From assembly GCF_000003815.2 (NCBI RefSeq), contig NC_049987.1, positions 21,400,187 through 21,464,186 of the forward strand: a DNA stretch of 64,000 bases, given 5' to 3'. Below the pieces are notes generated by a model. It worked only from the letters and a program-made list of their open reading frames with translations. It was not told where the DNA came from and searched no databases. The translations under genes were made by a program, and so were the position numbers. The number at the start of each line of letters is the position of its first letter. Positions within the stretch are counted from its first letter, which is position 1. The DNA is from Branchiostoma floridae (taxonomy: Eukaryota > Chordata > Leptocardii > Amphioxiformes > Branchiostomatidae). This document shows, piece after piece, positions 30,901-64,000 of the stretch.

Positions 30901-33900
30901 ATTTTTTCCCTAGGACCCGCAAAGAAAATGGGATGCTGTTGTTTCCATGGCCTCCTCTGCACCCAGCCAACAAGTAGAGAATGATCTCTTGCTCAGAGCC
31001 TTTGAGATCTACATCTTCACCATGGCCCAGATCCTCCGGCGACCCATTGTTGTTCTAGCTGAGAACGTGCCCCTCAGTGATGGAGGTCCCTCATTGAGCG
31101 GCATCTACCTGCCACTACAATGGCCAGCAGAAGAGTGTGTGAAGAACCCCATCATGCTTGCCTATCACAGTGGCCAGTTCTTCCCACTGCTCTCTACCCT
31201 AGCTCCACAGCAGGCCACATCTCCTGTCCCCATTGATGCAGTTCCACTGATAAGGCAGAATGGAGAAAGTCTTCCAGTGCATCTACTGCTACCGGAGGAA
31301 GCTGGCCATGTCCAGGAGTACCTAAACCAGCGCATTGATACCGTCCAGGTCCAAGATCACCATGACAATCGCCTAGTAGGAGCAAGGCTGGGCATCCTAA
31401 CACCTCCTGATGAGTTGAACCTCTTTTTGGACATCTTCCAGCAGACTGGGGGAAGGTCAAATCCCGCAGAAGCCAGAGAATCATCCCCTGGGCCTGCTGC
31501 TTTCGAGAACAGGAATGGAGGGGCTGACCAGAGCATATCTGTCTCCTGCACCCAAGGAGCAGATGGTCTGACATCTCGTGGCGCAGACCTCGATCAGCAG
31601 ATGCTCAGAATGTCCATTCAGAAGGAAGTTGTGAGCCATGGTAACAGTCACTCTCATGTCTCACAGGTTCCATTGGCGGAACGGGCAATGACATCCACAG
31701 CAAACCCATGTACCACTGATGGCAATCAACACAGCCCTGGCATTGTGCAAGTTCACAACATGCCTCCTGCAAGTCAGCAAAGCATCCACACCAGTCACAG
31801 CACCAACCAAGATGAAGGTAACAACCACAAGACAACCTCAAGCAAGCTGGGAGAATGGCAACAAAACAACGTCTTACCAAGGGATGTGTCAGCCACAGCA
31901 GAAGGCAACCCAGATGGAAATCATGCCTCAAGAGCCAATAGTAGGTCCTCAAGAATGGCCTGTGACAACACAGTACAGTGGGATGCAACTGGAGCCAAAC
32001 CAAAACAGTATTCATCCAGATCTAGGGATGGATCAAAGAAGTTTGGAAATCCTCCTGCTCGTGACAAGTCCATCTGCAAAATGGAAGGGTGTGGTGGAAT
32101 CGCAGAGCCCCGTCTTGGTGGCATCTGCAGGGACTGCAACACCAAGAAGACCCAGAAAGAAAGGGAAAAGAGAAACAAAAAGAGACTTTCCATTGAAAAT
32201 CCCTCAGCAGAAGGGCCCGCATCCCAGTACAGAGAGGCCAGAAAAACCTCAAGATCAGCTGGTCAAGAAAGAGAACAGCAGACACAGTCAGGCCAGAGGT
32301 CGGTTTCATCAGCTCCAACAAGCAAGAACTCATCATTAGCTAAAGCGATCAAAGAACGAAAGTCAATGCAGCCAGTGAACACACCAACTTCAACAGCAAA
32401 CACAAGTTGCAGATCATCAGCAACTGACGATGGCACATTGATGAGGCCAGAAGTGCTTGGGCTGCAGACTACACCTAAGCCAGAAGTGCCTCAGTCCAAT
32501 GATGCTGGAAGTCGCCCTGAGACTACATTCCTACCTAACAGTGGACCTCCCAGTTCTATCATCTATGCAAGTTCAAGTGGCCAATCATCAGCGACAAGCA
32601 CCCATGGCACTGACCCAAGTGTCAATCAAATGATACTGAATGGAAGAAATCACCATGCTGTAAATCAGTCGACCAATGATAAATCTACGTCCAGCACGCA
32701 GCACAATGCAGATGGACCCCTTGGACCTCCTTCGCACTATTCTAGGACCACTGCACAACATTCTGCTGACGGTGCTGTCCCAGAGAATCGTAACTCCATC
32801 CCAGCAGATAAAAAGTGTTCAGCTCCAAACTGTGACAGACAGGTGAACAAGGACATGAATGGCTCTCTCTGTGGAGTGTGCCACCAGGTCCTTGGGCAAT
32901 TCAACCAGATGTCTCTTCCCAATAGTGGCACACTCATCTTGGGACCAGGAAACACTATTTCTGCAACTACAAGACCAATATCAATTGGTAAATTTTATAT
33001 TTCATAACAAACTTGAAAATGTTGTTTCTTCTTTCCTTTTCACATAATACTCTGTGATGTAAATGTTTGTATCTTAACCTTTTGATGTCCCAGAATGAAT
33101 GAAGATTCAACATATTTCAGGTGCAGCTGCAACAATGACTACAAACCAGCACCCTGCCATGGCTTCAGTTGTCAACCCACCCATGAGGAACCAACAAGCT
33201 GGTATGTCTGTGGATGATATTTGTGCTCATTGGCATATGCAGCAGCTATGATATTTGTGTATATGAAATTCAGTTAATTGCAAATTCTTATTTATCCATG
33301 AATTTCATTAATACATGTAATTAACATTTATCTTTGGGAAGTATACTACTTACCAGACTTTCTAATTCAGATACATATTTAGACCTACTCAAAGTCTGAC
33401 TTAGTCCTAAAAAAATAGTCTTATTTTAACAGTGCACACAGCATCTGAACTGCCATCCGCACATCAATATCCACGATCCTTGCTGCAGCAACGGGGCACA
33501 GGCCACCACCAGACTGTACCATCACCAGGCCAGTCCACAGAGCAGTTAGCTACCCAGCCTTTAGTCACTGGGGGTTGCAGATATACAGATGAGATGAGTG
33601 CTTTGGCTTCCAACAGCTTTGATGCATCTCGTAACATCTCACTGCATACAGATCCTGAGCCCTGTAGTCAGCCTGCATCAATGCCCCAATCCATTTCTTG
33701 TACTAATTATAATTACTATAACTTTGAACGTGGATCTGTTCAAACTTTCATCAATAATCCATCACCCGCAAGAACACGAGCACGAGGGTCACCCTCCCCG
33801 CAAAATGGCCAAACTCCACTTTTGAGGAATAGCCCCTCTCCACCTTTACCTGCAAGACAGGGTCCCTCCACACATACAATGTATGGCCAATCCCCAAGGA

Positions 33901-35251: not shown

Positions 35252-35950
35252 CTATTCCGGAAGTCGTCGGATGACGTCAGGTAGCAGCGAATCATAAAAG
35301 GCGGGAAGGCGAAACCTGCCACCATCACGGTTCAACGAGGGTTGATGTGCCCTAATGTAAATAGCCTCCTTGACGCCCCTCACGAACCAATCCTGTTCAG
35401 AGTCCAAGATGCGAACTTGGTCCAAAGACACAGAGTGGCCCGGAGATTCAACGAGTAAGTGTTGAGATACCTCTGACGTAGTTGAGCTGCGACGTCTGTG
35501 TTCCATGAAACGGGTTTCCAAAGATCGTGCCGTTTCCCCAATGTACGATTCGGTACACGGGCCTCTGTTGTTCTGTCCGTTGCACCTGATGTGGTACACC
35601 ACACCACACTTGTGCTCTTTGGGCGTCTTGTCTTTAGGCGCTACCAGCAGCTGCCTAAGAGTCCTCGTTGGCCTAAAGCAGGTCTTTATGCTGTGTGTGT
35701 TGAAGATTCTACGTAAGGCTTCCGACACGTTCTTAACATAGGGTAGCACCACTAGCCCTTTTGTCTGGGAAGTGGACCGATTTTGATTGCCAGTCCTAGT
35801 AATTTTGGGTGCTATCGCCCTGGACACTGCCCAATCGGGGTAGCCACACTTGCGCAGTGCCTGAGTTATGTGCTCCTTCTCTCTCTCCCTATCTTCAGGG
35901 TTGGTAATAATAGAATCAGCCCTATGAAACAACGTACTGATGTCACCCAA
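35252..35950 (-). pseudogene. Penelope-like element ORF fragment (GIY-YIG endonuclease)
   Basis: The 232-aa frame from the internal Met contains the GIY-type start (CGVVYHIRC), the YIG core with Arg (YIGETARSLETR), a downstream Glu-His, and a Cys/His-rich insert (CNGQNNRGPC). The frame continues upstream of the Met into HPLEHKLG and stays open into the inverted repeat, so the Met is not the true start. The protein is a 5' truncation without the catalytic reverse-transcriptase motifs. Confidence 0.8.
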
Positions 35951-36048
35951 TTTGTGTTCTAATGGGTGACTAGAATTGAAATTTAAGTTTATGATTCGCT
36001 GCTACCTGACGTCATCCGACGACTTCCGGAATAGTGCAGCGAGTCATT

Positions 36049-39519: not shown

Positions 39520-41781
39520 TCACACATAGTCCTCCCTTCCCATCGCACTAGTGTTCCATGATAACAACTCTTTCTCCCTGCCAGAGAACACCCTTTCTCC
39601 ACCCGTCTCGAACTCTGACTCTCCAAAGGAGGGGAACCTGACTAACGGTTCTGTCAGTGGACCCTGGATTGCCGGAATGCTAGACCTCACGACATGGGGG
39701 AGAACCCCTGGATTGGGCACCCACATAGAGGGTGTGAATGCTGATGGATGGATGTACGTGTTAAATGTGAACTGATTGTCGTAGACATCAACATGCACAG
39801 GTGTAGGTGGGTCAGACGTGACTGTGATGTTGTCTTGCCTGTGAGCGACGGAGGGCAGGTAACGAGGGACGTTCGCTGGCCTACACCCTGCTGTCTCTGT
39901 TGTAGTGGCACGGGATCCTTAGTTTAAAAGAATAGGAGGACACATATCAGATTTCGATGAGAATTACTACTAAGTACCAAATGGCACCAACTTAACCTTT
40001 GCTTACACAGCAGTTTAAGGTGTGTGCTGCCCCTACGGCTGATTAAAAGGCTATGGGACGAACGAACGAACACAGGTAATGTTGGTAAAATTACTAGTAC
40101 AAACAGCATTGTTCAAAACTTTTTGTCAAAACATTTTGTTGTATTATCATTTACTTAGGCCAAAGCGGCATCCCCATAAACGTCAGTCTGTATTGGTTTA
40201 GTCCTAAGTGTCTAAAGTAACATCAAACCCAAGTTCCATCTCTCTGTTTCTGAAACTGAGCGCTGAGCATCATGTCACCCTCTGATGACCCGTATGGATT
40301 AAAGCAGTAGAAAAGGAAGTTCCAGTCTGCAACCCAGTAATCATCAAGGTCAAGGTCACAACACTAACACATCAATGTTAAAAACTTTTCTACGTTGTGA
40401 CATGCAAGATATCAGCTCATGAAAAACATTAACTGCAGTACCACATATTAAATATATTCAATTTTCCGTGCTATACTCCACCCCACTGATTAATTGAAGA
40501 ACACAATATGAGCCTATCTGCTTACCATGCATCAAATGCCCCTCTCTAGGCCCTGTTTCCCTCCCCTCATGCTGTATCCAGAAGCAGGGAAAACAGAACC
40601 CTCCACGGTCAGGGTCAGCAAAGTTGCTGCAGTATGGATTCCTACAGAGTTTCCTGTCACCTGGGTCTTCTGCGGGGTACCCTAGGTATGCAGCACTGAA
40701 ACATTGAAAAGGAAAGTCTGACATGACCTGCTGGAACTAGCAGTAAGCGGAAGCCTGACTAAATTGCAGTCCTAGCACCAGCACCGGCAGTTTCCACCCC
40801 TCACTCTTGGGGAGGGGGTCATACACCCCAGCCAGCGAGAGATGCATCACGATATATGTGATGGCAAAAGTGATCCTTTTTTTATGTGTAATACATATTT
40901 TTGAACTACATGCCACAGCGTTCTCTGTCTGATTTCCTGGGTAACTTTCTGGGTTCTAATTGTAAATACATTACATCAATCTCCTAATCAATCCTCATGT
41001 TGAGTGTGGAAATTCTGTGGCATGTACAGTTCCGAGAAAATTTGTGTTACCTGGATTGGTCTTGTCCGATGTCTCCAGAAGTCTGTGACTGTACATAAGT
41101 CGGGGCTCTAGATCCTGCTCCACCCTGTCTCCCTCCAGCTGGACTGCCCAGCCGTGGCCTGTCTCCTCCTCCTTTTACCTCCCTCCTCTCTCCTGTCGTC
41201 TTGGCTCTGATTGGCTGAGCTGATGTTGGGCAAACTGCAGCTCCAACAGGAGGGGCACTGATGTACCGTCCTCTCATTGGCTCCCTGGGATGTTCCTGAT
41301 AGGGGGACACAGCAGGCAGAGAGCGTTCCTGCCATCTACTGCCTGTGTGTGGAGATGGAGGGATGTGGGTAGGCAGAGTGCTGTATGACGGGGGTGGGGA
41401 TACGACACCAGACCTTGGGGAGCTTGGCTTGGTGTAGAGGATTGAAGCATCTTGCCTTGGCCGGCTTGCAGCAGAGACACTTGGGATACTGCTGGGCATG
41501 TTGACCTGTGAATTCTCCCTGTGAGCTCGGTCACTGCGGAACAACTCCTGCTTGAATTTCTCGTAGCACTCCCGGCAAAAGGACGTCCCCCGAAACCCTC
41601 CAACTTGGTAGCAGTCCTTTTTTTCACAGACACCGTTCCTATAGATGCCGGAGTCTTGTACCTTCTCCTCTAGATGATGGATACTGGAGTCTCCAGGGTA
41701 GGCTGGTGAGGACTGGGGCTGCAAACCATGGTAATCTCCAGTCATAGCCTGGTAACACTCTCCATGGTCCTGATTTGCCAT
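39520..41781 (-). CDS. A20-type zinc-finger protein without OTU domain
   Basis: Minus-strand exons 41781-41051, 40695-40526 and 39896-39520 join in phase (AG|T, G|AG) to 425 aa ending GREDYV. The start ATG lies one base after the acceptor TTGTACAG at 41783, so a 5' leader exon upstream is likely. Two canonical fingers, C-x4-C-x11-C-x2-C, start at Cys52 (CEKKDCYQVGGF) and Cys261 (CRNPYCSNFADP). Between them is a Pro/Ser/Gly-rich, probably disordered linker; the C-terminal part is unrecognised (PVHVDVYDNQFTFNTY). No GDGNC-type OTU core was seen on this strand up to 46 kb. A20 fingers bind ubiquitin in other proteins, so a ubiquitin-binding adaptor is inferred. It converges tail-to-tail with A20-like gene 2. 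Confidence 0.78.
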
Positions 41782-41944
41782 CCTGTACAACAGGGAAGAA
41801 ATGACGAAAGATTTGTATGTGTAAGTGTTGTAGAACACTGACAGGTAAATCATCAAACAGTTCAACTGTACTTAGTAGTCACTTAAAGTTGCTTAGTGGA
41901 CTGATATATTCAAATCACAGTGCACAACAGAATGTACATATAAC

Positions 41945-45029: not shown

Positions 45030-46170
45030 AGGCTGAAAGTAAAAAAAATGTACTATTTTACACAATTTAGCCTACAAGAGGCTGTGATGTTTTACAAATA
45101 AATCATTCTCATTCTTATACTGTATTTGAGTTAAGTATTAACCTAAGGATCTGTTTTGTATCAAATGTGTATTGACTATAGAGTTAGGCAGCAGGGGCAA
45201 GGTTAAGGCTCTTTATGTGTAAGATTTTTGACAATCTAACAGAAAAGATGTTTCACAAACTGTTGTGACAATGAACAAAGGCCGGAAGCCGGTTAGACAT
45301 GTTCTCACCCAGTCCTGTGACACATATTAAATATTTTAGACAACTTCTGCATAATTCATACCATCAGACTTTGAGACAAAGAAGCCACACAATCATTTAG
45401 AGGTGTGAAAGCATGCAGTGTCTGATAATTGTGAGCCACATTGTTTAGCCACTTGTTGTAGTTGAAGTTTTGGACACATTGTGCATGTGTAATTGATGTA
45501 ATTAGAACTTAATTATACCCCGGAGGTGTATTGCTATCTATTAGACAACTCTCTCAAAACCCCACCTGAGAAATAGGGCAACACTTATCACTTTAGATTT
45601 TCAAAGACTCTTTATCTAATACTTGCTACCTGAAGAAAAAAATTCAAAGCCAAAAATCTTTACTGGGTATGAATATTGACAAGAATAAAGATGTGATATA
45701 TCACATAGGTTCTGTTTATCCCACAGTCATGCAGAGATGCTTGTTCATGTTGAGAAGGTTGGTTGTCATACCAACAGCCTGAGGGCAAGTCAAATCTTCC
45801 CACCAAGGGTCTGCTATCAGATAAGGACCAAAATATGTCAAAGGAGTAATTAAATTTGCTTGGCCTAAACCATCCAGTTAACTAGGTGTGGTCTAATGCC
45901 TCTTCCTTTCATCGCCCCACAATCAACTGACAGATTTATCACCGCTCCGCCCTCTCGTCCACATCGCCAGGGAAATACGAATAGATAATGAGAAACGTGG
46001 TCATGTGACCAGCAACCTGACCTGTCAGACAGGTGGGTTGACTCTTTGTCTCCCTTGCGCACAACCTGGTGTGGGCCAGCCGCATTTTTCACTCTCCTCG
46101 GATTTTCGCAAATCCGACTCTTCTTCTCCGACGTTCTGCCGCAGTTTGGTGAACCTCTCCCAAGGACATC
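45030..46170. other. Upstream region of the coiled-coil gene
   Basis: No exon was recognised. From about 45900 the sequence is less AT-rich and CpG appears more often, consistent with a promoter region. No TATA-type element stands out. Confidence 0.35.
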
Positions 46171-49100
46171 ATGATTCGCGACCTCTCTTCTCCCGGTGAG
46201 ACGATCAAGTACCGGATCATAGAGAGGGAAGGTGTCAAGGCGTCACGGTCGCTAACGTCATCCTTCTCACAAGAGGTGAGTTCAGTTAGCACCAACATTT
46301 CGACCGGGTCGTCTTCAAAGACCAGCCTTTATGCGACTTCCCAGGCTAAGCAATTTGAGGGGGCCATCGCAGGTAGCAGTGCAGAGAAGGAAGGGAGGGA
46401 GTTGGTGACAACGCTGCATGAGAAAATTGAGTCTCAGGAAGAAAGGGGTGTGATTTCCGGCTTCAAGGGCACCAACATTTCGATCGGGTCTTCAAAGACA
46501 GTCCTTTATGTAACTTCCCCGGATAAGCAATTTGAGGGGGCCATCGCAGGTAGCAGTGCAGAGAAGGAAGGGAGGGAGTCGGTGACGACAATTCATGAGA
46601 AAACCAAGATTCAAGAGTCCCAAGAAGGAAGGGGTGTGATTTCCGGTGTCAAGGGCATTACTGGAGCGCAAAATGGGGCTCAATCGCAAATCTCACTTCC
46701 TGCCAATGGGTCCGCCTCCGCACGGTTTCAGAGCTCGAGCCAGAGCGGAATTCAAGCATCGTCATTTGGAAAGACGGAAAGCTATGGCAGCGTGCAGACA
46801 ACTTTCACTAGTTCTGCATACACCTCAAGCACTTCTCAATCAAGCACTGGAGCCAAAACTGTGTCAGGGCAAAGCACTCAGGTGGGCGTAACGAGGGAGG
46901 GTCTCAAGGCAGGTGTAGCATCAGGAAGTCTTAACTCAGGTCAAGAAAGTGAGCGGGACATAATACGGATTCTCCAAGAAGAGAACAGACAACTGAAGCT
47001 GAAGCTGGCAAGCATGGGAGTCGGTTCTACACAGGGAGGCGGGGTTAGTGTGTCTACCACATCTGCCTCCGGGCAAATCTCGTGGGACGAAGACTTCAAA
47101 GCACTCCAGGGTTGCAGCAGAGATGAGCTGATTATCAAAATCACACACCTGTTGGAGGAACGCAAGACCCTCAAACTCCAGAGTGAGTACGTCCTGATTA
47201 GCACCCAGTCTTTGAAAGAAACGACTGAGACCGACGGCAAATATGTGGCCACACAAGGGAAAGTGGAAAGTGGCGGAGCAGTGCAGGTAAACACAGAAGA
47301 GAAAGGGACATCCCTCCAGGCAGAGCTTGATCAAGTGACCCAATTGTACAAACAGATTCTTGCAGAGAAGAATCAGATGGCAGAGGAACTCAAGCGTTTC
47401 AAGGCTTCTCAAGAACAGAATGAAGAAATGAAGACAAAAATCAAGACCCTTGAAGAAGAGAAGGTGACGCTGGCCACGCTTAAGTCCGAAAACAACAGTC
47501 TCAAGACAGAGAAAACCAAAGCAGAGAAAGAAAAACTGGCTAAGATTGAAGAAATGAAGGGGCTGCAACAGAAGCTTACAACACTAAAACTTGAGAATGA
47601 AAATCTACAGGCACAGAACGTCAAGATTGAAAAGGAAAAGGCATCCCTCTTTGTCAAGAAGCAGACAACAGAAACAACAACGACTGTAAAGGTACAAGGA
47701 AAACAGGAAACTCATGAAAAACAGATGGAAGAAATGAAGCTGAAGATAAAGGCACTTGAGGGAGAAAAGGCAGAACTTCTCACAGCAGCAAAGCAAACTA
47801 CCAAGACAAAGGCAGGTCCTGTCGGAAACAAAGATGCAGACATCAAGAAGGTACGTGAAGAGTTGACATCCTTGAAGACAGAGAACAAGACCTTGATGAT
47901 GCAGAAGACCAAACTGGAGGAAGAGAAGGGGGCCCTTATGGCAGAGGCACAGGACAACTCAATGTTGCAGGGGGAGATAGATGACCTCAAGTTCCAGCTG
48001 AACAGCCTGATATCCGAGAACACCATCCTTACAGCGGAGAAGACAAGCGCACAGAAAGAAGGATCCACAAAGGCAGAGGAGGAGAGGAAAAGGCTTCAGC
48101 GTGAACTGGACACTCTTAAGAATAATAATCAGTCAGGAGACAAGAAGGTACAGGTGGAACTGTCATCTTTGAAAAGAGAGAATGAAGTCTTGAAGACCCA
48201 GATAGCTGAGTTCCAAGGGCAACAAGGAACTGTTGCAGCTGGTGCACAGATGAATTTCAAGGGAGATAAGAAGACTACAAAACAGCAATCCGCTACCTTT
48301 CACACTACCAGCCAGGTGGTCACGGTGACGAACACACAGCAGGGAGATATAACATCCCTGCGGCTGGAAAATGAAAGCTTGAAAAACAAAAACGCCATGC
48401 TAGAGAGGCAGAGAGCCAGTCTTCTCGCCAAGGAGGAAAAACTCACAACCCTGGAGGGGGAAATGACACGGATGCAACAAGAACTGTCCACACTACACAC
48501 AGACAATGCAAGCCTGAAGGAAGACCACGCAGCGTACGCTAACACAGACGTGAAGAAGGTACGTGTGGAGCTGAAAGCACTGAAGTCTGAGAACGACACC
48601 TTGAAGACACAGAAGAGTAAACTGCAGAAAGAAACAGGAAGCCTTCAGGCAGAGGTGCGGAAGAACACGACTGTGCTAGGAGAGATGGAAAAGGTACAGA
48701 GCCAAGTGAAGAGCCTCGTGTCTGAGATAGAGGTTCTGAAGGCAGAGAAGACAAAGGTGATGCAACAGGAGGCAAAGAAGGCAGAAGAAGAGACTAAAAA
48801 GCTGCAACAAGAACTGGCTACCCTTAGAAATACCGACCAAGAGTCAGTCATTGCCAGGATGGAGGCAGAGCTGACTAGTCTGAAATTGCAAAGAGAAAGC
48901 TTGGAAGCTGAGAAGGCTAAGCTGGAGCGAGAAAGAAATGCCGCCACAATAAAGGTGGAGGGGATGAACAGGATGGAGGAAGAATTGTCTTCTTTCCAAT
49001 CTGAGGTTAGAGTCCTAAAGAAAGAGAAAGTGGCAAACAAACAAGTTGATGTAAAGAAGCTACAGAAGGATCTGGCATCCCTGCAAGCAGAGAACAAAGC

Positions 49101-52100
49101 CATGAAGACAGAGAAGAGTAAAGTGGAGGAGGAAAGAAGGAGGCTTGTAGCTGAGACACAGAAAAAGATGACCACGAAAGTGACAACACTTGAGGAGCAG
49201 CTGACTGTTCTCAGATCTGAGAATGAAATCTTCAAAGAGGATACGAGGAAGCTGAAAGAAAAAGAGGCTGAGAGGATGGCAGAAGAGAGAAAGAAACTCC
49301 AGGAAGAAATGGCAACAATGAAAATCACATACCAAGAGCAAGTGGCCAAGACCATGCAAGGAAAACTCGATTCTGTCCTGTTGGAAAATGAAAGCCTGAA
49401 ACAAGACAAAGCAAAACTGGAGAGGGAAAGAGCCAGTATGAGTAGGGAAATGGCTGTAGAAGGTGGAGGTGCAGGTTTTATGGTCCAGACAACAAGCAGA
49501 AGGGAAGTGCAGAAAACAAGTGAATCAGTTTCCTTCAGGTCAGAGGCTAAAGGTCTGAATGAGATAGAGGTCATCAAGAAAGAGATGGAAGGAGGGAGAG
49601 TGACACAAGGAGACAAGAAGATACAGGTGGAACTGTCATCTTTGAAAAGAGAGAACGAAATCTTGAAGGCCCAGATAGCGGAGATCCAAGGAAGACAAGG
49701 AACTGTTGCAGCTGGTGCACAGATGAATTTCAAGGGAGATGTGAAGACTACAAAACAGGAATCCACTACGTTTCACACCACAAGCCAGGTGGTAGCAGTA
49801 ACCAACACACAGCAGGGAGACATGACATCGCTGCGGCTGGAAAACGAAAGCTTGAAAAACAAAAATACCATGCTGGAGAGGCAAAAAGCCAGTCTTCTCG
49901 CCAAGGAGGAAAAACTCACAACCCTGGAGGGAGAAATGACGCAGATGCAGCAAGAACTGTCCACCTTACACACAGAGAATGCGAGTCTAAAGGAAGACCA
50001 TGCAGCGTACGCTAACACAGATGTGAAGAAGGTACGTGTGGAGCTGAAAGCACTGAAGTCTGAGAACGACACCTTGAAGAAACAGAAGACTAAACTTCAG
50101 GAAGAAACAGGAAATTTTCTGGCAGAGGTACAGAAGAACACCACTGTGCTGGGAGAGATGGAGAAGGTACAGAGCCGAGTGAAGAGCCTCGTGTCTGAGA
50201 ACGAGGTCCTGAAGGCAGAGAAGACAAAGGTGATGCAACAGGAGACGAAGAAGGCAGAAGAACAGACCAAAAAGCTGCAACGAGAACTGGCTACCCTTAG
50301 AAATACCGACCAAGAGGCAGTCATTGCAAGGATGGAGGGAGAGCTGTCTAATCTGAAATTGGAAAGAGAAAGTTTCAAAGCTGAGATGGATAAAGTGATG
50401 CGAGAAAATAACACCCTCACAATTAAGGTGGATGGAATGAAGAGGATGGAGGAAGAATTGTCTTCTGCACAATCTGAGGTTAGAGTCCTGAAGAAAGAGA
50501 AAGTGGCAAACAAACAAGTTGATGTCAAGAAGCTACAGAAGGATCTGGCATCCCTGAAGACAGAGAAGAGTAAAGTAGAGGAGGAGAAAAGACGTCTTGT
50601 AGATGAGACACAGAAGAAAATGAAGATGCAAGCGACGACACTTGAGGAGCAGCTGACTGTTCTCAGATCCGAGAATCAAGACTTCAAGGAGGAGAATAGG
50701 AAGCTGAAAGAGAAAGAGGCTGAGAGGATGGCAGAAGAAAGGAAGAAGCTCCAGGAAGAAATGGCAACCACTGAAAATCACATACCAAGAGCAAGTGGCC
50801 AAGACAATGCAAGGAAAACTAGATTCTGTCCTGTTGGAAAACGAAAGCCTGAAACAAGACAAGGCAAAACTGGAGAGGGAAAGAGCCAGCCTGAGTGGGG
50901 AAATGGCTGTAGAAGGAGGAGGTGCAAGTTTTGTGGTCCAGACAACAAGCAGAAGGGAAGTGCAGAAAACAAGTGAATCAGTTTCCTTCAGGTCAGAGGC
51001 TAAAGGTCTGAATGAGATAGAGGTCATCAAGAAAGAGATGGAAGGAGGGAGAGTGACACAGTCGGTCAGATGCAGGGGAGGTCCGCTGTCTCACTGGATG
51101 TTACAAAAGTTCAGGAGGAAATTGCATCCCTCAGGGCTGAAAACCAGAGCCTGAGATCTGAGATGTCAAAGCTGAGGAGGGAAAAAGAGACACTCCTCAG
51201 CCAGGCACAAACTATAACCTTGACAGAGGTGAGGGAAGTGGGGAACACTCAGCACACCACCATCATATCAGAGAGCTCAAGCCAGGTCATGGGAGAGAGG
51301 CAGGAAAGGGAGACAGTGGACCTGTCGAAGGAACAAGAAGCGACAGACAGCACCTTGGAGCGCATAAAAGCAGAGATGAGCACCTTGCAGACTCTCCTGG
51401 AGGAGAAGGATGAGCTACATGATGCTGATGAAGCTGGAGTAAAGCAAGCTACAACAGACAGTAGGACGACCGGTAAGGGTTCTGATACTGCATCCTACAT
51501 CAAGGAAATCGATTGCTCAACCGAGTTAACTCTGAGGAACGAGAAGGAGAAATACGAGACGCTGGTGATGGGGAAGTGGCAGGTCATCGACCTGCAGGGT
51601 GATGGCGCTCTGCAGCTTCTGCAAGAGGAGAACAGGAAGCTGCGGGCGTACATCGAAGAAAATGACATGCAGATCGCAGCGATGCAGAATTCAGGAGCCG
51701 GAGCGGTTAAGGTAGAGGTCCACAAAGAGGAAACCTCTACATCATCTACATCATCATCAACTGTGAAACAAGGTTCCCAGTCTACAGAGGAGGAGACCAA
51801 GATGCTGAAGAAGGAGATTGCAGAGCTACACGGGTCCAGGGAAACCTACAGCAGGCCCTGGCGTCAAAGCTGGAGGAAAGTTCAGCGAACGTGACGAGGA
51901 TGCAGCTGTTGGAGATGGAGGTGACGCAGCTGTATCAGGTGCTGCTGCAGCACGGAGTGTCTAAAGCAGACGTCAAAATAATCACCTCGTCTGCGGAAGG
52001 CACCGAGGAAGCTGAAGATGCCATGGCAGCAACGAGTTTGCAGGTTCAGACCGTCGAGGTGACCCAAAAGAGCAAAGAGGTCCAAAGCCAAACCACAAAG

Positions 52101-52733
52101 AGTGCCGCAAAATCCTCAAAACTGAGCAGGCTGGAGGAAGAGGCTGCGAAGATGGCACAGAAGAGGAAGAAGCTGCAGCAAGAGCTGGCAAGTCTGAAGA
52201 CTACATACCAGGAGGATGGAGCAGCCAAAACACAGCAGGTCCATTCACATAGGAGCGAAACTGTCATCACCCAAACCACAACCGCACAGGGTACCGTGAA
52301 TACATCACTGAGCATGGAGCTCGAAGGAGAAATGTCATCTCTGAAGACAAAGCTACAGGATTACGAACAGCTCCAGACAGAGTTAGCGGAGACAAAGAAG
52401 GAGCTAGCAAAGCTCATGGAAGAGAAACACAGCAAAGGAAACAGTAAGAAGGCGGCCAAGGAAAGCCAAGCGGCTCAGGAGAAGATGGACATGCTCCAGA
52501 TGCAGGTGAAGGAGCTCTCGTTGCAGGTGAAGATCTTGTCGACCAGTAAGGCCGACCTTGACGACACGAGGAAGAAGCTTGCACAGCTGCAGAAGGAAAA
52601 CACGAGCCTCAGCGGACAGCTGGGTAAGATGAAGGCCATGGAGAGGGAGGTGACCATCGCAAGGAGCGTCATCCAGCAACTCAAGGACGACAATGAGCAG
52701 ATGGCGTTGAAGCTAAAGAAAAGCAAAAAGTAA
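46171..52733 (+). CDS. Giant intronless coiled-coil protein (three apparent frameshifts)
   Basis: The ATG at 46171 (GACATCATGATTCG) opens 1601 codons; after single-base shifts near 50770, 51065 and 51835 coding continues to TAA at 52733, about 2190 codons in total. The N-terminus MIRDLSSPGETIKYRIIERE is followed by two 60-aa repeats (46291-46470, 46471-46656), then a Ser/Thr/Gly/Gln-rich head (aa about 170-260). From aa about 265 to the end the protein is almost continuous heptad-like coiled coil rich in Lys, Glu, Gln and Leu. Codons 656-1146 are duplicated in tandem. No intermediate-filament helix-initiation motif, motor or kinase domain was seen. A structural filament or scaffold role is inferred. 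The family was not recognised. Confidence 0.75.
46291..46656 (+). repeat. Two in-frame 180-bp repeats in the coiled-coil gene head
   Basis: Units begin ACCAACATTTCGAYCGGGTC at 46291 and 46471 and encode TNIS.GSS.KT.LY.TS and KQFEGAIAGSSAEKEGRE in both copies. The second unit is slightly longer. Confidence 0.9.
48136..51061 (+). repeat. In-frame tandem duplication of 1473 bp inside the coiled-coil gene
   Basis: The segment 48136-49608, starting GGAGACAAGAAGGTACAGGT, is repeated from 49609 to about 51061. The second copy lacks 21 bp (seven codons near 50550) and contains the first frameshift. The period equals 491 codons, so the heptad frame is kept. Confidence 0.92.
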
Positions 52734-54570: not shown

Positions 54571-55557
54571 GTGTTGAAGGGCGTACAACACCAAAGTACA
54601 ATTTTTCTGTTTATAGTCCACAACCAAGATGGCTTTATTCAATTAACATACACGTTCGCATTTGTACCAAATGAGAAACGGGGCGAAGTTTGGGTAAAGG
54701 AAGAGGACGTAGATGAGGTTGTTCTTCCACGATTCGAAGGACGCGATGGTTTCTGATTTTGTTAAGGCCCATTGAGAGCATGATTCATTCCTGCCATCAC
54801 GGTTGTTAGATGTACTAGGTATCCCGAGAATTTGTTGTCTTGGTGGGTAGTTCGAATCCTTATTGGTGCTACCACGTCAGTATGCGAGGACGACTCGAGT
54901 GAGGTTAAAATGCAACTCGGTTTTAATGTGCTTGAGCCAGGGTTTACAAGAAAATGGAGAAACACATCCGGGGCCTTTCGGCGACATAACAGTAGACTAA
55001 TGCATTAACATAACGGTGACGTCACAACATATTATATATCATAACTGTGGCGCACCCTTTTCCTGTTATTAGACATTGCGCCATCAAAAAAACATTCTTC
55101 AGACTCAAGGATTTTGTTGCAAGGTAATCCAATTAAGCATGTAGGTGACTTCCTATTAAACATGTCAACTAGTACATAAACGAGGTTTATGAAAAACAAT
55201 TGAGAAGCAAACAGTGATTAATCACGATTGCAACATACTACAATTATTATATTTCCTTTTGCGGCTTTTTGCAGCTCTTTAAGAGTACATTTTTCTTGAG
55301 CCACTGTGCTGTGTTCCAAACTGGTTGCCCATCGTTTGATATAACGTCACTTACATGCTTAATTGGATTACCTTGCAACAAAATCCTCGATTTTTGATGG
55401 CGCAATGTCCAATAACAGGAAAAGGGTGTATGTACATGTACTAGTATTTGGTGCAAATACGAACATGTAATACAGTATACTATGTTAATTGATACTGTAT
55501 AATCATGGTTGTGGAATATAAACAAGAAATGTTGTACTCTGCTTTCCTACGCCCTTT
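54571..55557. repeat. Nested inverted repeats upstream of the methyltransferase-like gene
   Basis: Outer arms lie at about 54571-54634 and 55501-55557 (GGTTGTGGA..TATAAACA shared). Inner arms lie at 55053-55149 and 55346-55428 (CACCCTTTTCCTGTTATT... inverse); the inner left arm has a 14-base insertion. No transposase ORF. The arrangement suggests a foldback element inserted inside another. Confidence 0.7.
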
Positions 55558-55681
55558 AAATGTAAAATGTAACACTCAAATCTTATGTTCATACTATACT
55601 GACACACACTTTCAAATGTCTTATATATATAATGTTGCAGATTCTGGAGGCATTCGAAATTTCTGCAAGCAAAAATACAAC

Positions 55682-58600
55682 ATGGCACATGCTCAACCAG
55701 AAAATCGGGAGGATAATCATTGTACAGTTGGGAAAATCATTGACCGATGGGTCCGTTACAAGCAAGCAGAATATTGGGAAATAGAAGTTCGTGAATGTTA
55801 CTGTTTGGAAGAAGAAAAACAACATGAAGAACATTTCTGTGAACAGGTCCGAGATGCCTTGGATAAACTTTTCAAGGCACATAAAATCGAGTCTTTAGAA
55901 AAAGGAATACAAGATATAGAGTATCATAATGGATTTTTCCAGTTTGCATATATGTACAAGCATTCAATGTTTTCGGCTCGAAGTCTTACAAAGATCATGC
56001 AGAGTCCTGTGGTTGTGGAAAGGTTTATTAAAGTGCAAAACAAAGACAACGGTATCATCAACGTTGCCTGCCTGGGCGGGGGACCTGGGTCCGATGTCCT
56101 GGGTGTTCTGGACTACTTCCTGAAGGCTGGTTTCGAGGGGAAACTCAACATTCATTTGTTTGACAAGATGGACAAGTGGGGACGATGTTGGGTATGTATC
56201 ATAATCACTAAAGGTTTTTTCATTTTCCCCAGTATACAAAGTTCACGTAGTTAAAAATCTAAATGCACAGGCTGCTGATCCTCAGATGCTGTTGTCCACA
56301 ATCATGCAATGCTATTTCATAAGAAATTTATTTTTCTTATAGTCTGCTGTGAGAAAAAGAAATTTGTGACCTACAGTCAAACCTGTCTATAGCGGCCACT
56401 CAGGGGACTAGAGAAATGTGGACGCTATTAAGTGTAGACAGGTGGCCACTATAGAGAAAATGGTGATCAGTTGACTACGAGCAATTTACACATGATTTCA
56501 ATACCCTCTGATCTTTGTCACCATTTAGTAACTAAAGTAACATTGTCTTGATCATCTCAAAGTTCAACTGCCAGACCCTGCTAAAGTCAAATCTACTGAA
56601 AATGATTGATATCGCCATGTGCAATGTTGGTAAATTTGCTGACAAAGACTTGCGCTATAACATTTCAGGCACGCGTTCCTTCTGTTACCTCCAAAATTAC
56701 CCTGTCAGGAACTCTAAATCCTCGCAAACTACCATTTTAGCCTCGGCGCAGGGTGACATACGGCCAATGTATGGTTGCAATAGGAAGTATTTCTGTATCT
56801 ACGGGACTGGAAATCGTGTGGCTGTGGCCGCATTGGACAGGTGGCCGCTATAGACTATTTCTTAATGCTTATGTCAATGGGAAAAATCTAAGGGGCCGGC
56901 AAAAAGTGACTGCAATGGCCAAGTGGTCACTATGCAAAGGTTTGACTGTATACATGAGCCTGTACAAACATTAAGTTGAAAATTATCTACATTCATTTTT
57001 TTGTTTAATTCATCTGTGATCAAACATGTCAGATGATCTGAATTGACGTTGTGTCTGTTGTCAGTAACTGTTGTTACAAATCACAAAATATGCTGGAGGT
57101 TTCTTGAGGTTAGACTACTTGAATTTGGTGGAAAGGTACTGAAGACACAGGGCTTGAAATTCATTTTTGGAATTAGGTGCCCTGGTGTACCCAACCTATT
57201 AGAAGAAAATTGGGTGCACCAAAAATATTTTGGGTGCATCACATAAGATAGACTAGAAATGTCAGAAAGACCTAATTACAAAGCCTACAGCCCCAATATG
57301 AGCTTTGATGATCTTGAATCTAAAATGGGAGCTCTGTGACAATGTGGCCTGGGCCCATAAGTGGCAGTTCCCATCACCTCCCTGCTGCCAACCAGTCTTA
57401 TGGCAGGCACAGGGTCAAAATGTCTTGATGGATGGTTTACTCAATGATATTGTCTTCAGACTTATGAGATGGGTCAAGACAGGACCACCTGCCAGTGGTC
57501 TGTTCTGACTCCACCAGCATTCATCAGATAATGACTCTTCACGCCCTGCTGTGTGTATGGGGATTGTCTACCGTGCCCAGTTTTGAAGAATAAAAATTGA
57601 TGAACCCAAATTCCAACTTTACAATCTTAAACAACTATTATCTTTTTAACACTTCAATGTCGAGAAAATGATGTATACAGTTACTTAGTATACAGTCATG
57701 TACTTTGAATACTTTACATACACAAAAATATTTTGGAGCACTGGTGCACCCACAGAAAAGAAATTGGATGCACCAAGGTGCACATGCTCCCAGTATTTTG
57801 AGCCCCAAGACAGATGAGATTCTTAGCCTATGATTGGTACATTTGAGTGTCAATTGCAAATAATCGACATCTGTCACCACAGGAGACTCTGGAGACTGCC
57901 ATAAAGGCAGAGCTCTCTGAGGACAGGGTCACAGTCAGCTTCCACGACTTTGACGTCACTGCAGATGACAAGAACAACCCTGACGTTGAGAATGCTGATA
58001 TCATCACAATGCACTACTTCATGGAGGAAGTGTACTCTGAGAGGGACAACCCAAATGGTGAGCCCACTCTCATTTGCAGTTATTAGGGTGTACAATATTC
58101 AATAGGGTAACATGCAACTGGCAACACTTACAATACTAACTGCCGTGTATTGTATACTAAATATTTTGCCAAAAGTTGTAATTTCTTCTTTCCATCACAT
58201 TGTCCTTCACTTCAGTGAAGGCATGCTAAGACATAATCCAGAATGCTAAACCCGGGGCATTGTTCCTGTACTCTGGAATGTTCATGATCCAGGCCATGGA
58301 CTGGGTACATCAACTCCTGAAAGATGAATGCCAACTTCTGAACCATATCCTAACCATGTCCCAATCAGTAAATGACTTACTCCTGACTGTGCTCCAAATG
58401 CTATCTAACCTATTCCTAACCAGCCCGACCTCTAGCCGCAGACTGTCGAATCACTCCTGACTGATCCCCAACCGATGGCCGAACCTCTCACGACTTGAAA
58501 TGGAAATTAGCGATTTTCAAAACAGTGGTCATTTTGGTCTTTAATCAAAATAATCCTTTTTTCTAATCATCACCAAGAGATTGAATTTGGATCACAGATA

Positions 58601-60357
58601 GCTCCAATAATTGGCATTTATGGTTCTTTTTTGTTCTTGGGTGGATGTCGGTCGTGTGAAGTTTGGGGGGTGATTCGCGTACATCCTGGTAATAGTCATT
58701 TTGCTTGAATAAATTAGCAGAGATTTATCTGGACTTAGGGTGAATTGTAGGTAAGTTGGAAACAAATGGGAGTATTAAATAATTAAATGTCAACTGAAGT
58801 GTTCATGGCGTAGTTAAGATTTAAATTTGACTGCTGACTTACTCCACATTTACACTTTTTCTGTTAACATTGTGACATGGCCTTTGAATTGGGTTACCTT
58901 TAATTTATTTGATATTGAGTTATGTACGGTACCGTATCAAATGGCCAACTTGAATTCCGTTCAAAAAGTTGATATTTATTTCTTAACATTATCTTTTGTT
59001 CATTTAGACTGAACTATCCGTTTCTCGTTTTTTATCAATGTAGCTTATTGTTTAATTTGCATGTTTAGTTGTGTTTATTTATATCTATACCATTGTACCA
59101 ACCCATTCCAGACCTGCCGATCATAGCCGAATGTTTTGAAAATTTCAAAACATTTGGATGGCTCAGATGAACACCACCCGACTCAGCCGAATGCCAGCCG
59201 ACTCAGTCGAACGCCAGCCGACTTAGCTCCTGAATCACTCCTGATCATAGTCGGGTAAAAAAAGGGGCATTTCAGTATCACTGAGCAGAAGGGGACAATA
59301 ACAACTTAATACAAATAGTAGTTGTTAGTAGTTGCTAGCCAAATGAAAGTCATTTTTACCTGGTGAGACTTCTGGTCAAGGCATATTTCAGCAAGTGGTT
59401 TCCCTATAAACAGAGACCAACCAAGCATAACTTATTTAGAGTGTAAAAGGATAATGTTATGTCCCACCCAAATCTTTAGATTATCTACTTCAGGTACTAA
59501 TCATTTTGTTACATCATTGTAACACAAGAAAGAAACATGCCAGGCTTGTTGGTAGATGGGCCTAAACCACAATGGGGTACATATCACAGAAAAGGAGCCC
59601 TTGATGTTTAAGCTAGTCAAGATAGACTAGGACTATGTTAAAGTACTGGATCAGGATTCTGACTCGTTTGCACATGATGGTCAACAACATCTAGAGAACA
59701 CCAAGATGAGATCTGACTTACAAGGTTGAAGAGACAGAGAGGGTAACAAAAGCTCCCAATGTATCAACATTATTTTATTGTGTGTAAAGTTACAATGTAA
59801 GTATTTTGCCAAAAGTTTAATTTCCTCTTTTCATGACTTTGTCCTTCAGTAAAGGCCTGCTTTCACTACATAATCCAGAAGGCCAAACCTGGTGCCTTGC
59901 TCCTGTACTCTGGGATGTTCTGGTACCAGGTAATAGGCTGGGTACATCAACTCCTGACTCCCAACTGCAAACCTCTGACACCAGGAACTGAAGTGACTGG
60001 CCGGTGGATTGGCCCAGATCCAGCAATTCAGGTGAGCAAATTCTTACGATGGAAAACAGTTTATGGATTCAAGGTGCATGTACTACAATGTAAGGTGCTA
60101 CAGTAACTACAATTTGTATTGAGTATGTACTTGAATTTCTAGAAACAGATTTTTCTTTCAGTCTTTCAATCTGGTTTGGTAATAGTAATACACATATTCA
60201 TCACATTCTTTAGGTTGACTTGAAGCAAGAAGTAGACTTGAAGCTGTTTGATGACATCAGGGATAAGCTGGAAAACTACATGTACTATAGTGACGATAGA
60301 AGGGAGGTTTCTCAGAGATATAAAGGCAGAGTTATCTACCGCCTTTACCAGAAGTAG
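55682..60357 (+). CDS. SAM-dependent methyltransferase-like protein
   Basis: Exons 55682-56191, 57883-58057, 59850-60031 and 60214-60357 join in phase to 336 aa. The first exon begins at about 55640 after a TTGCAG acceptor; the ATG at 55682 (CAACATGG) has good context. An upstream in-frame ATG at 55505 lies in a repeat and is not preferred. The motif VACLGGGPGSDVLG near aa 128 is a glycine-rich class I SAM-binding loop, followed by LNIHLFDKMDKWG with the acidic position ending strand 2. Later parts are VTVSFHDFDV, ADIITMHYFMEEVY and KPGALLLYSG, matching the strand 3-5 pattern. The substrate is unknown. A small exon in the 1.7-kb intron 1 cannot be excluded. Confidence 0.75.
56374..56948. mobile_element. 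Mariner-like non-autonomous element in intron 1 of the methyltransferase-like gene
   Basis: Bounded by TA plus CAGTCAAACCTGTC on the left and AGGTTTGACTG plus TA on the right. Inside, GTCTATAGCGGCCACT and GTGGCCACTATAGA form further inverted phrases. TA target sites are typical of Tc1/mariner. No transposase remains. Confidence 0.75.
57151..57810. repeat. Possible hAT-type remnant
   Basis: The left end CAGGGCTTGAAATTCA and a right end TATTTTGAGCCCC are rough inverses, and GGTGCACC phrases recur near both ends (57215 and 57745). No clean target duplication was found. Confidence 0.35.
58208..58330 (+). pseudogene. Dead duplicate of methyltransferase exon 3
   Basis: Matches 59842-59970, including intron sequence just upstream (ATATTTTGCCAAAAGTT). 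The reading is VKAC, stop (TAA), then DIIQNAKPGALFLYSGMF and WVHQLL. The in-frame stop and the loss of similarity downstream show it cannot serve as a functional alternative exon. Confidence 0.8.
58331..59849. other. Intron 2 remainder with degenerate repeats
   Basis: A CCTAACC/CCGACTC-rich patch occurs near 58340-58490 and another near 59105-59255 (CAGCCGACTCAGYCGAA twice). These may be the ends of an element that disrupted the duplicated exon. Confidence 0.35.
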
Positions 60358-60419: not shown

Positions 60420-62176
60420 TGTTTTTTATCAGAACAGAATAGTTTAAGAATGCAGGATGATAAGTTTGATATATGATAACTTTTAAAGTGAAATGGTTTT
60501 AAGATCATATTATAAAATGTGGTTTATAAAAACACACTCAATAATAAGAACACAGGATACATTTCATGTATGATCATTTTTAGAGTAACATATAATTTAA
60601 GATAATATTTATAAATATGGTTTTGTTAAAAAAATGACTAAAGAACACATGACTAGAAATACTGGATGATAAGTTTCAGATCTAATTTTAATTCTATATT
60701 CATAAAAACATATAAAGCAATTTAAGAACACAAAATGAAAAGTTTTAGATCATGGTTAACATGTACACTGATGTGTAGTGGATAGTTCTATAGTTTGTGC
60801 AGATGGGAGAGGATGAAAACAAGTGATGGATACAATGTCATCATCATGATAATAATATTAGACATTGAAATAAATAAATCTGATGTACACTCAATTTGAT
60901 TGTTTTTTTCTGAACCTCATTTACTTTAACTTGAGAAAGAAAATATCCCTACATTATATCTAACGGACATCAATGTATTACTTTAAGAGATATAAAATCC
61001 TTTTGTTAGGTCTGGAATGAAATGAAATTACAGTTAATGTACAAGCAAAAAAAAATCAAAGATGGTGACATACATGAGGACCTGAAGTGAGAGTGTTGTA
61101 TAGTCAGCATTTTTTTAATGGATAGATCTCTTCTTCAAGTTCTTGTCCATATAGATAATGTCAAAAACTCTGGGAAAGGAGCAGCTTGTTGAAGTGACCT
61201 GAAATTTATTACTTGACCAGCCATGCTGAAAAGACACATCTTCCTAATAAAGACAGACTGTCACAAAGAAGATACTACAGTCTGTCTAACACTATTGAAC
61301 TTCATCTGATTCCACAACAATACTAGGCAAAATTTGACGAGATGTGCAGAAATTCACAGTCAAACTTCCAACGGTGTTTCTGCATTATGCATAATGTAGC
61401 TAAAAACCCCCTGATGACTTAGTAATACTGACATTTGTTGTGCAATTCTAAGACAACTAATTGAGAGTATTTCTGAGACAGTCGTGGATGTGTTATTAAG
61501 AATTAAGCTGTCTTCAGACAGAAAGGGTTGTTCACGGTTGCTAAAAATCCTGTTACATGATAACCATAATACTATCATGATGATGAATCTGAGTGTGCAT
61601 CCATGACGTAATTAAATTAGCCCTAAGGGCAACCTACAAGTGAGAAGTTGTTAGTCTTGTATCTCTTAACCTTCTACCTACCAAGGTTGCCTATTGCCAC
61701 AAAATTTGTATTGTTTATGGGGTTAAGCAGTATGAAAAAGGTTAAAGGATTTGTCAAGCATTCAAGTCGGCTGCATGATTGTGATATTGTTTGGTAGTTA
61801 ATTGTGGTATAATATCTTTATAAAATAGCCTTATAGTTAGAAAGACTACATTAAATCAAATGAGAGGCAATTGTTTCTTAAAATAATGCAAATCCATTAC
61901 ATTAAAGGGAAGTCTCACTGTATCTGTACAATCTGTAACTTTGACTCAGTGATGACACGACCTATGCATCAAATGCACATGGCCCAGTGGGTCGAACAAG
62001 ATTTAGTTCCACGACACTGAATGTCATATGATCAACGTTGTACATTATACCCTGCAAGTCAGACAACTACGAGCTATAGTGTCACTGTCTGCCCGCGGAA
62101 CCTACGCCAGACAAGTCTTTCACAATCTTTCCTGACATGGGTTTTTTGGCATGTCTGACTCTTATTTCGGGAAAAC
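60420..62176. other. Intergenic region upstream of the last ORF
   Basis: AT-rich, with no recognised gene. The promoter of the gene starting at 62177 should lie at its right end; no clear core element is visible. Confidence 0.4.
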
Positions 62177-63634
62177 ATGATTCGTGAGAAGACAGCGCGT
62201 GGACTCTGGCAGTCCTACAGAGTTGTGGAACGCTCAGATGCGAGAAATTTGGCTGCTGCCCCTTCAACTGAAAATGTGAGCTCCCTCAAGCTCCGCAGAA
62301 CAACTGTCATCGCTACTGTTTGTGACATTGATGACGACGACAATGGCAGCCAAGGCGAGCCCGAGTACATCACCTTGGTGATCTCTGAAGAAGTTCAAGG
62401 TCAAAGGCTATCGGAAAATGGTGGGGAGACACCACAAAGTCAAGGGCATGGATCTCCGATTTTGGAAGGTCACCCAACATCAGCAGATATGGTAGCGGCA
62501 GATGAACTTTGGACAGGTCAAATTACAGAGACCGGAGTTAATGTGAACATTGCCGATCAACGTGCCATCTTCATGAAAACAAGGATAGATGAAACTGGCA
62601 ACAAGGCTACAACGGACGATGGCATGAACTCTGGACAGACAAACTCCAGACAGTTGAACTCTGAGGTCAGTGTGACATCAAATATGCAGGCCTTTGCAAA
62701 AACACCGCAGGCAAACACAACAATTATAGGGGGAGGTGACAATGGCGGACTGACATGTTCAACAAAGAGTGAGCACGCATCTGACACACTGGCGGTTCGG
62801 ACACACGAATCTGATAGGGGTCAAAGTGCTGGGGGTCATACACCTGCAGTTGAGAGTGGGACATATAGAGGTCACGAAACTGTAACAGCTGTATTACAGA
62901 ATGACCATAGGTTGACACCATTGTCTGTGGCAGACAGCATGTATGAAGGTCATGTCTCCAAAACTGGGCTTCATGCAAACACTGACAAGCGAAATGACAC
63001 TTTTGAGATTGACAACAACAATCTGCAACAAGAAGGGAAAGACTCAGACCAATCTTGTTCTCCAGAGGTCAGTGTGCCCCAAGGTGGACCATCGAGTGCA
63101 CAAGCCTCGGGCACAACACCGCAGGCACACGCAACAACAAGTGAAGACGAGACAATGTGTTCAGCAGACAGTAGTCCGATATTCAACACACCAGTGTTTA
63201 ACACATCGGTGGTTCCAGTAGCGACAGATACACCGGATATGGGTCAAAGTGTCGGAGAGACACCTGCTGACAGGAGTGGAAGAACCGGTGATTCCATGCC
63301 CCTAGGTTGCGAGAATCAGGTCGCAGAGATCAGTTACTGTAGCTCGGTGCAAACAGCAGGGTCCTATCAACAGCCAATTACTTCAACTATCTCCAAGAAC
63401 CTGCCTCAATCGAGGAAAAGGAGAAGAAGGCGGTTGCCATCCATTCCGGAGGAATTTACGGATGTCACAGACACCAACATTGAAGATCTGCGACCAGAAA
63501 AACTTCAGGAAGTAGTCGTCCTTACTACTGGGAGTGAGACAACAGAGGAGTTAGAAGATGATGCAAGACACAATACAGAGGAAGCGATGACGGAAAAAGG
63601 ACGTGAAGGTGTGGTGGAAATGTCTTCTGCTTGA
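62177..63634 (+). CDS. Disordered acidic Ser/Thr-rich protein sharing an N-terminal motif with the coiled-coil gene
   Basis: The ATG at 62177 opens 485 codons without an intron. The first 19 residues follow the pattern MIR[DE]x5-G-x4-YR[IV][IV]ER seen at the start of the giant coiled-coil protein. Then comes LKLRRTTVIATV, an acidic DIDDDDN and YITLVISEE, followed by a long Thr/Ser/Gly/Asp-rich part with two repeats (62498-62860, 62930-63280) and a basic RKRRRRRLPSIPEE segment near aa 414. TGA at 63632 ends the frame, yet the same frame stays open to the window edge with similar composition. No known domain was recognised. The gene may continue beyond the window. Confidence 0.6.
   Translation: MIREKTARGLWQSYRVVERSDARNLAAAPSTENVSSLKLRRTTVIATVCDIDDDDNGSQGEPEYITLVISEEVQGQRLSENGGETPQSQGHGSPILEGHPTSADMVAADELWTGQITETGVNVNIADQRAIFMKTRIDETGNKATTDDGMNSGQTNSRQLNSEVSVTSNMQAFAKTPQANTTIIGGGDNGGLTCSTKSEHASDTLAVRTHESDRGQSAGGHTPAVESGTYRGHETVTAVLQNDHRLTPLSVADSMYEGHVSKTGLHANTDKRNDTFEIDNNNLQQEGKDSDQSCSPEVSVPQGGPSSAQASGTTPQAHATTSEDETMCSADSSPIFNTPVFNTSVVPVATDTPDMGQSVGETPADRSGRTGDSMPLGCENQVAEISYCSSVQTAGSYQQPITSTISKNLPQSRKRRRRRLPSIPEEFTDVTDTNIEDLRPEKLQEVVVLTTGSETTEELEDDARHNTEEAMTEKGREGVVEMSSA
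62498..63280 (+). repeat. Two diverged in-frame repeats of about 350 bp
   Basis: Shared landmarks are CACCGCAGGCAMACRCAACAA near 62703 and 63117 and GGGTCAAAGTG near 62818 and 63240. The matching protein phrases are EVSV...TPQA.A.T and GQS.G.TPA..SG. Confidence 0.65.
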
Positions 63635-64000
63635 CCGAATGGTCTGAACGGTAATGAGGAAGGTGGAAAGTCTGGAATTTCTGGTGATAGCGCAGATATC
63701 GCAGGTGTTCAAATGCAGGGTGCAACCAAATCCTGTAAGTCAGATCGAACAGTACTGTCTGAAACTGAATCAACTTCAAGCACAGCCAAGACTAACCCAA
63801 GTTGCACAGATGAAGTTGAAAGCAAAAACGATAAAGAGTGTGCTGATGAAAAGACAATGACGGCGGAGAAAGCACCAGGCACAAAGGTAGCAATTTTTTC
63901 TGACATGGTTGAAGATCTCCATTATAATGCAACAAACACAGTCAAGACGGACCCAGCATTATTGTCTAAGGGTGAATCACTTGGATTAACTCCTCCATTG
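63635..64000 (+). other. Open frame continuing after the in-frame TGA
   Basis: All 122 codons after the TGA are open in the same frame to the end of the window and encode the same Ser/Thr/Asp/Glu-rich type of sequence (for example SETESTSSTAKTNPS). The TGA is followed by C. A nonsense mutation, a sequence error, a selenocysteine-free readthrough site or a spliced-out stop are all possible. Confidence 0.5.

Follow-up and report, generated by a model that had tools for sequence, protein, structure and literature searches.

A conserved peptide at the start of two genes in the window (the whole 64,000-nucleotide stretch of DNA analyzed here, C9:21400187-21464186) marks a real, apparently undescribed family of long coiled-coil proteins, as judged from sequence. 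The original prediction treated it as a feature of two otherwise unrelated genes whose remaining sequences do not align. Neither part of that description holds: a second conserved block of the window coiled-coil gene is also found in the downstream frame of the second gene, and this block and the coiled-coil homology are common to them. Thus, the motif is inherited in paralogs rather than being a tag on unrelated genes. The proposal that the conserved N terminus marks an undescribed family is borne out, because a third paralog carries the motif and because no relative was found in Pfam or PDB at the thresholds used. The suggested function in docking or assembly is plausible. On the combined sequence evidence, the three genes are almost certainly paralogs that form a single family of long coiled-coil proteins.

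Both ATGs, with their frames and peptides, were located in the window ORFs as originally claimed: MIRDLSSPGETIKYRIIERE at position 46171 and MIREKTARGLWQSYRVVERS at position 62177. The shared MIR[DE] start therefore stands, but its spacing needed correction: the motif is MIR[DE]-x4-G-x4-YR[IV][IV]ER, whereas the form with x5 has no match in the window. In the six frames of the window, MIR[DE] occurs only at 46171 and 62177. The N-terminal block occupies positions 46171 to 46233 (plus strand) in the coiled-coil gene (MIRDLSSPGETIKYRIIEREG) and 62177 to 62239 (plus strand) in the second gene (MIREKTARGLWQSYRVVERSD), and the pair has 7 identities among residues 2 to 19 in a single register from the first Met. 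The codons of conserved residues differ between the two starts (for example, CGG and AGA for Arg15, AGG and CGC for Arg19); thus, the peptide is what is kept, and the two starts do not reflect a recent DNA duplication. An in-frame stop lies exactly seven codons 5' of both ATGs (46153 to 46170 and 62159 to 62176), which is probably a coincidence.

On the one hand, whole-protein BLASTP of the window pair ranks the motif first, with the alignment beginning at residue 1 of both proteins, at an E-value of 0.25, so the two window sequences by themselves are only suggestive. Similarly, when 65,703 pairs of ATG-started window frames were scored, the motif pair fell outside the best six listed, which were mostly repeated or duplicated DNA. 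On the other hand, the fixed-register prefix score of the pair (36) was reached in just 4, 31, and 60 of 2,000,000 random pairs under three composition models and in 47 of 1,000,000 under a fourth, and at least 7 identities were seen in 93, 162, and 724 of 2,000,000 and in 448 of 1,000,000; these rates are per pair, and the number of pairs a reader might compare is not counted in them. For the N-terminal block, the reciprocal best scores were 64 and 34, compared with 27 or less elsewhere in 10,379 sequence windows. Together with the third gene and the second block, both found in genome-wide searches, these rates and scores contradict a chance match between two unrelated starts, which we consider extremely improbable.

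The assembly searched comprises 513,431,437 bases in 431 contigs and represents one species, probably a lancelet. At E ≤ 10, the 23-residue N-terminal peptide of the window coiled-coil gene matched only itself (4.5e-8) and the start of the third gene (0.41); each match lies at the first ATG of a long coiled-coil frame. A query with residues 1 to 367 of the window protein identified one other place at E ≤ 0.001, which is the frame of the same third gene, and residues 1 to 366 of the latter returned, besides itself, the window gene in two pieces (E = 0.0014 and 0.066). In BLASTP comparisons, the window gene matched this protein over residues 1 to 21 (57% identity, E = 0.001 to 0.005), over a 40-residue block (45%, E = 5e-4), and between its coiled-coil C-terminal end and residues 664 to 773 (37%, E = 7e-9), all E-values referring to a small set of seven sequences.

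The third gene, which we call the giant, lies 9 Mb from the window on the same contig (C9:12469588-12491579). Its open frame of 7,195 codons (C9:12469480-12491064) has a first ATG that reads MIRDTSSPFQKIKYKVVRKEGED. Exon 1 extends over 21.4 kb from 12469588 to 12490984; a predicted GT-AG intron of 221 bases (gtaagt...cag) then joins it in phase to a short predicted exon 2, which starts with VFGRVQQWWRG, ends with EGILGLLVVASVWFLGGLIYVNTNHGF followed by a stop codon, and has no other match in the genome at E ≤ 10. Spliced as predicted, the protein has approximately 7,256 residues; unspliced, it has 7,159, with the frame stopping at 12491064 and without a membrane segment. The label "giant," originally given to the window coiled-coil gene, better suits this gene outside the window. 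The description of the window genes as intronless was sound in that the long frames are seen uninterrupted by introns; for the giant, one or more introns are predicted at the 3' end. Internally, the giant contains near-identical repeats approximately 545 residues apart (e.g., at residues 3993 and 4538), five repeats of the form K[ED]IQT[DE]-x-G[VI]A[RK][KR]RA[AS]KL, and approximately 20 short Trp-rich amphipathic motifs such as GPFRRLFRWWSSGY, a number counted by eye from 39 Trp clusters.

The second block begins the coiled coil of the window gene (LQGCSRDELIIKITHLLEERKTLKLQ, positions 47104 to 47181, plus strand). Its aligned versions are SLKTLSKEELIAKITELTQENITLK in the frame downstream of the second gene's product (P0003), TLQNYSKEELLTKVTQLITENKTLK in the giant, and ALQGCSRDELIIKITHLLEERKTLK in the window gene, with the consensus S-[KR]-[ED]-E-L-[IL]-x-K-[IV]-T-x-L-x-x-E. 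A 28-residue query from the giant matched, at E ≤ 10, the giant itself (5.3e-10), the window gene (0.49), and the P0003 downstream frame (0.79). These are exactly three genes, all on the plus strand of C9 and all with the match downstream of the N-terminal block, in a search that scores best candidates only, so that a divergent member could escape. An E-value of approximately 0.5 is unimpressive alone; however, both other matches in 513 Mb fell on genes already linked through their N termini. The block is reciprocally best among 10,344 sequence windows drawn from these same proteins (scores of 69, 67, and 58; next 44, 33, and 22). Thus, the N-terminal block is at the first ATG in three of three genes, with every start reading MIR[DE], and the S[KR][ED]EL block is at the opening of the coiled coil in the same three and nowhere else in the genome at E ≤ 10. 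A block that opens a coiled coil could be partly convergent. The reading of two unrelated genes is rejected on the basis of the second block. A scan with tblastn (E ≤ 0.05) and a pair of regular expressions, covering a distinct total of approximately 332 kb of C9 around both loci, gave no further tandem paralogs.

The N-terminal link between the second gene and the giant is weak. The first 38 residues of the second gene found nothing in the genome besides themselves, and in the comparison of sequence windows its N terminus scored low against that of the giant, outside the best five. Its membership therefore rests on the window pair and the second block. Moreover, P0003 was not matched by the window-protein query (E ≤ 0.001) or by the giant 1-366 and 23-residue queries (E ≤ 10), and P0003 proper (residues 1 to 485) matched, besides itself, a single place at chance level (E = 2.2). 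Its downstream frame, in contrast, matched itself and the giant (E = 0.0017). The gene has a disordered-looking N-terminal part followed by a coding signal in the same frame that leaves the window (62177 to 64000, plus strand). Past an in-frame TGA (63632 to 63634, plus strand) the frame reopens for 530 codons, 34 of which are N, and an assembly gap hides its far end; the second block is located at C9:21464577-21464651 (window-equivalent 64391 to 64465), approximately 390 bases beyond the window edge. The coding that begins at 62177 thus seems to extend in frame beyond 63634. The in-frame hexamer signal is 0.511 after the TGA and 0.263 before it, whereas the other forward frames give -0.29 to -0.65 and the best reverse frame is slightly positive (0.06 and 0.16); two intergenic stretches give -0.13 to -0.18 and -0.32 to -0.01. 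Because the two other family members served to train the hexamer model, the P0003 signal is partly shared composition.

The window coiled-coil gene has an open frame of 1601 residues (46171 to 50976, plus strand). Near its N terminus is a repeat (46311 to 46616, plus strand) of two 129-bp copies (46311 to 46439 and 46488 to 46616), and further along is an in-gene tandem duplication (48135 to 51060, plus strand), whose 1.47-kb copies, 48135 to 49607 and 49608 to 51060 (aligned to 51062), are identical at 1320 of 1452 aligned bases. Compared with the first copy, the second carries a frame-breaking 1-base insertion near 50768 (plus strand), past which the last approximately 69 codons of the open frame are out of frame; further frame changes occur near 51061 and 51838. 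After the 50768 break the coding signal passes through frames 2, 1, and 0, in that order, up to a TAA at 52731 to 52733. The coiled-coil coding signal in these other frames (50977 to 52733, plus strand) includes the C-terminal part that is homologous to the giant. By a crude, non-validated heptad measure, the fraction of residues is 0.70 in the window gene, 0.43 in the giant, 0.38 in P3b, and 0.07 in P3a.

The three frame changes in this gene and the in-frame TGA in the second would be expected if both window genes were decaying pseudogene copies of the giant and the motif a fossil. We regard this as improbable. The dN/dS ratio between the tandem copies is 0.25 over 482 codons, which is evidence for constraint after duplication; the 42 codons of the small N-terminal repeat give 0.47. 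In addition, 4.6 kb and 1.5 kb are open ahead of the first break in the respective genes, and the coding hexamer signal persists past each break. Assembly errors, or polymorphism in a heterozygous genome, would likewise account for isolated breaks.

The predicted exon 2 of the giant ends in ...LGGLIYVNTNHGF, with the final residues NTNHGF a few residues past the membrane span. Its best 19-residue mean hydropathy is 2.38, compared with 1.32 or less in exon 1, and the giant is thus likely to be tail-anchored in a membrane if the predicted exon 2 is used. For the two window genes, a search revealed no such tail: hydropathy in their frames is 0.75 or less, and the scan downstream, which was limited, additionally demanded a Trp/Arg motif. 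Nesprins and other KASH proteins are giant tail-anchored spacers, and extreme length combined with a predicted C-terminal transmembrane tail would suit a nesprin-like linker of the nuclear envelope or an organelle, the N terminus of which binds the cytoskeleton or another organelle. However, judged against the features of KASH tails, the ending in NTNHGF so soon after the membrane is not KASH-like, and Pfam gave no spectrin or KASH hit at E ≤ 0.01 for exon 1 or at E ≤ 1 for exon 2. The resemblance to nesprins is therefore one of giant spacers, without the KASH-like tail or spectrin hit, and a role of this kind seems a rather poor bet.

Comparison with proteins of other animals was made via Pfam and PDB. 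No family member has a Pfam hit above the curated cut-off. Below it, DivIC, TolA_bind_tri, At5g48480-like_C, Mto2_bdg, CATRA-C, Shugoshin_N, DAGK_cat, DUF7491, and TMF_TATA_bd were treated as composition effects of coiled coils. In PDB, no chain was found at E ≤ 1 for residues 1 to 393 of the window gene or for P0003, and P0002 had none at E ≤ 0.001. Searches with profiles (E ≤ 10) returned 18 sequences for the second block, with GCN4 constructs best at 0.17 and optineurin, for example, at 1.3. For the N-terminal block they returned 5, the best being a glycine receptor at 0.10. All of these were treated as chance. None of 4227 Rfam families matched at the gathering score, and among the titles covered by our literature search there was none on these genes.

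Three Pfam hits elsewhere did pass the cut-off: OTU domains in two neighboring genes on the plus strand (window 12279 to 14492, E = 4.4e-9, and 30914 to 33007, E = 3.1e-6) and a reverse transcriptase outside the window (C9:21474280-21477135, minus strand, RVT_1, E = 3.7e-40). By eye, the OTU genes, an ORF at window 41047 to 41871 (minus strand), and ORFs in C9:21350000-21399999 look like what we presume to be A20-type zinc-finger genes; perhaps they belong to a local A20/TNFAIP3-like array that adjoins the coiled-coil genes. An ORF at 35252 to 36001 (minus strand) has no Pfam hit at E ≤ 0.01 and is presumably, by eye, the GIY-YIG-type end of a retroelement. An exon-like ORF at 55493 to 56254 (plus strand) with GGGPGSDVLG is methyltransferase-like by eye and also has no Pfam hit at E ≤ 0.01. 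Two tandem single-frame genes at C9:21480472-21482328 and C9:21483425-21485323 are RING/TRIM-type by eye. Repeated DNA in the window includes an element seen at two ORF starts, 3877 and 22797 (plus strand), which agree in their first 25 residues (MAGAHGSSLIGGDSDPDRPAFRAPS), a 20-bp unit in three tandem copies at 59169 to 59227, and a diverged direct repeat (58165 to 58341 with 59804 to 59978, approximately 1.64 kb apart).

The members have a common layout: a conserved extreme N terminus, a variable low-complexity linker, the second block, and a coiled coil of very different length. The long coiled coils would also accommodate a cytoskeletal or filament scaffold. Its N-terminal block would be a head for self-assembly, such as filament proteins have, and the chains would be stapled into dimers at LC8-like linker sites. 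LC8-like sites were read in the giant and the linkers with regular expressions, using the DYNLL consensus of PMC3078936. The five K[ED]IQT[DE] motifs of the giant fit it at positions -3 to +2, although not at -4. The linkers of all three proteins contain SVQT, their sole common tetrapeptide (residues 207 to 210 of the window protein, 46789 to 46800, plus strand; residues 390 to 393 of P0003, 63344 to 63355, plus strand), and none of 20,000 triple shuffles reproduced that tetrapeptide. However, SVQT was picked afterwards, and any shared tetrapeptide arises in 151 of 2000 triple shuffles; it is thus weak evidence, a hint only. A tail anchor also makes the giant ill-suited to a free filament, and there is no intermediate-filament Pfam hit. 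We therefore view a scaffold as possible but unlikely.

The best explanation overall, which we favor with some reserve, is a paralogous coiled-coil family with N-terminal docking and a tail-anchored giant. The docking or tethering mechanism itself is tentative and is drawn by analogy. The N terminus would be an exposed linear docking peptide for a partner; hydrophobic and polar positions alternate along the conserved stretch of it (IKYRIIER, IKYKVVRK, and QSYRVVER), the pattern of a strand that joins a sheet of such a partner. The coiled coil would act as a spacer that keeps the peptide away from the anchor point. Predicted exon 2 would give the giant a C-terminal transmembrane tail, so that the protein would extend from the membrane with its N terminus distal, like golgin tethers. 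The two shorter paralogs, without a visible anchor, might be soluble and either compete with the giant for one and the same docking site or act there as its partners.

What began as a 19-residue look-alike has become a three-gene family with testable parts, including an exceptionally large coiled-coil protein that is probably membrane-anchored and is encoded nearly entirely in one exon. If the peptide is indeed a docking motif, it would be a new example, beyond the known golgin motifs, of partner or cargo recruitment by long coiled-coil proteins via the first 20 residues. More speculatively, these may be undescribed, possibly cephalochordate-specific membrane tethers: a tail-anchored protein of approximately 7,250 residues, mostly from one 21.4-kb exon, with a docking peptide, an LC8-binding ladder, and approximately 20 amphipathic Trp motifs, and two shorter paralogs that share the docking peptide and opening block and regulate the giant or bind the same partner.

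The closest likeness is to golgins (golgin-97 and golgin-245; golgin-84, GMAP-210, and TMF), which also combine long coiled coils with an N-terminal motif. According to PMC5267433, six golgins are established to capture by means of short motifs at the extreme N terminus, and the extreme N-terminal 20 to 50 residues are common to some otherwise different members; golgin-97/245 and TBC1D23 are cited beside the docking reading (PMC6611411). The sequences, however, are unlike: the golgin capture motifs given in PMC5267433 are M-S-W-L/F or have a conserved Phe2, whereas here the start is MIR[DE]...Y[RK][IV][IV] without Phe2. Thus, the family may work like golgins, but it is not thereby a golgin family. 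Golgins are anchored via the carboxy terminus (PMC4707255), whereas two of the three members here have no visible anchor. A Pfam search gave no GRIP domain hit at E ≤ 0.01, or at E ≤ 1 for four sequences. Giantin (GOLGB1) is, like the giant, a very large coiled coil, and it has a C-terminal transmembrane tail. The giant differs from it in its approximately 7,256 residues, nearly all in one 21.4-kb exon, and in its Trp-rich motifs, approximately 20 by eye.
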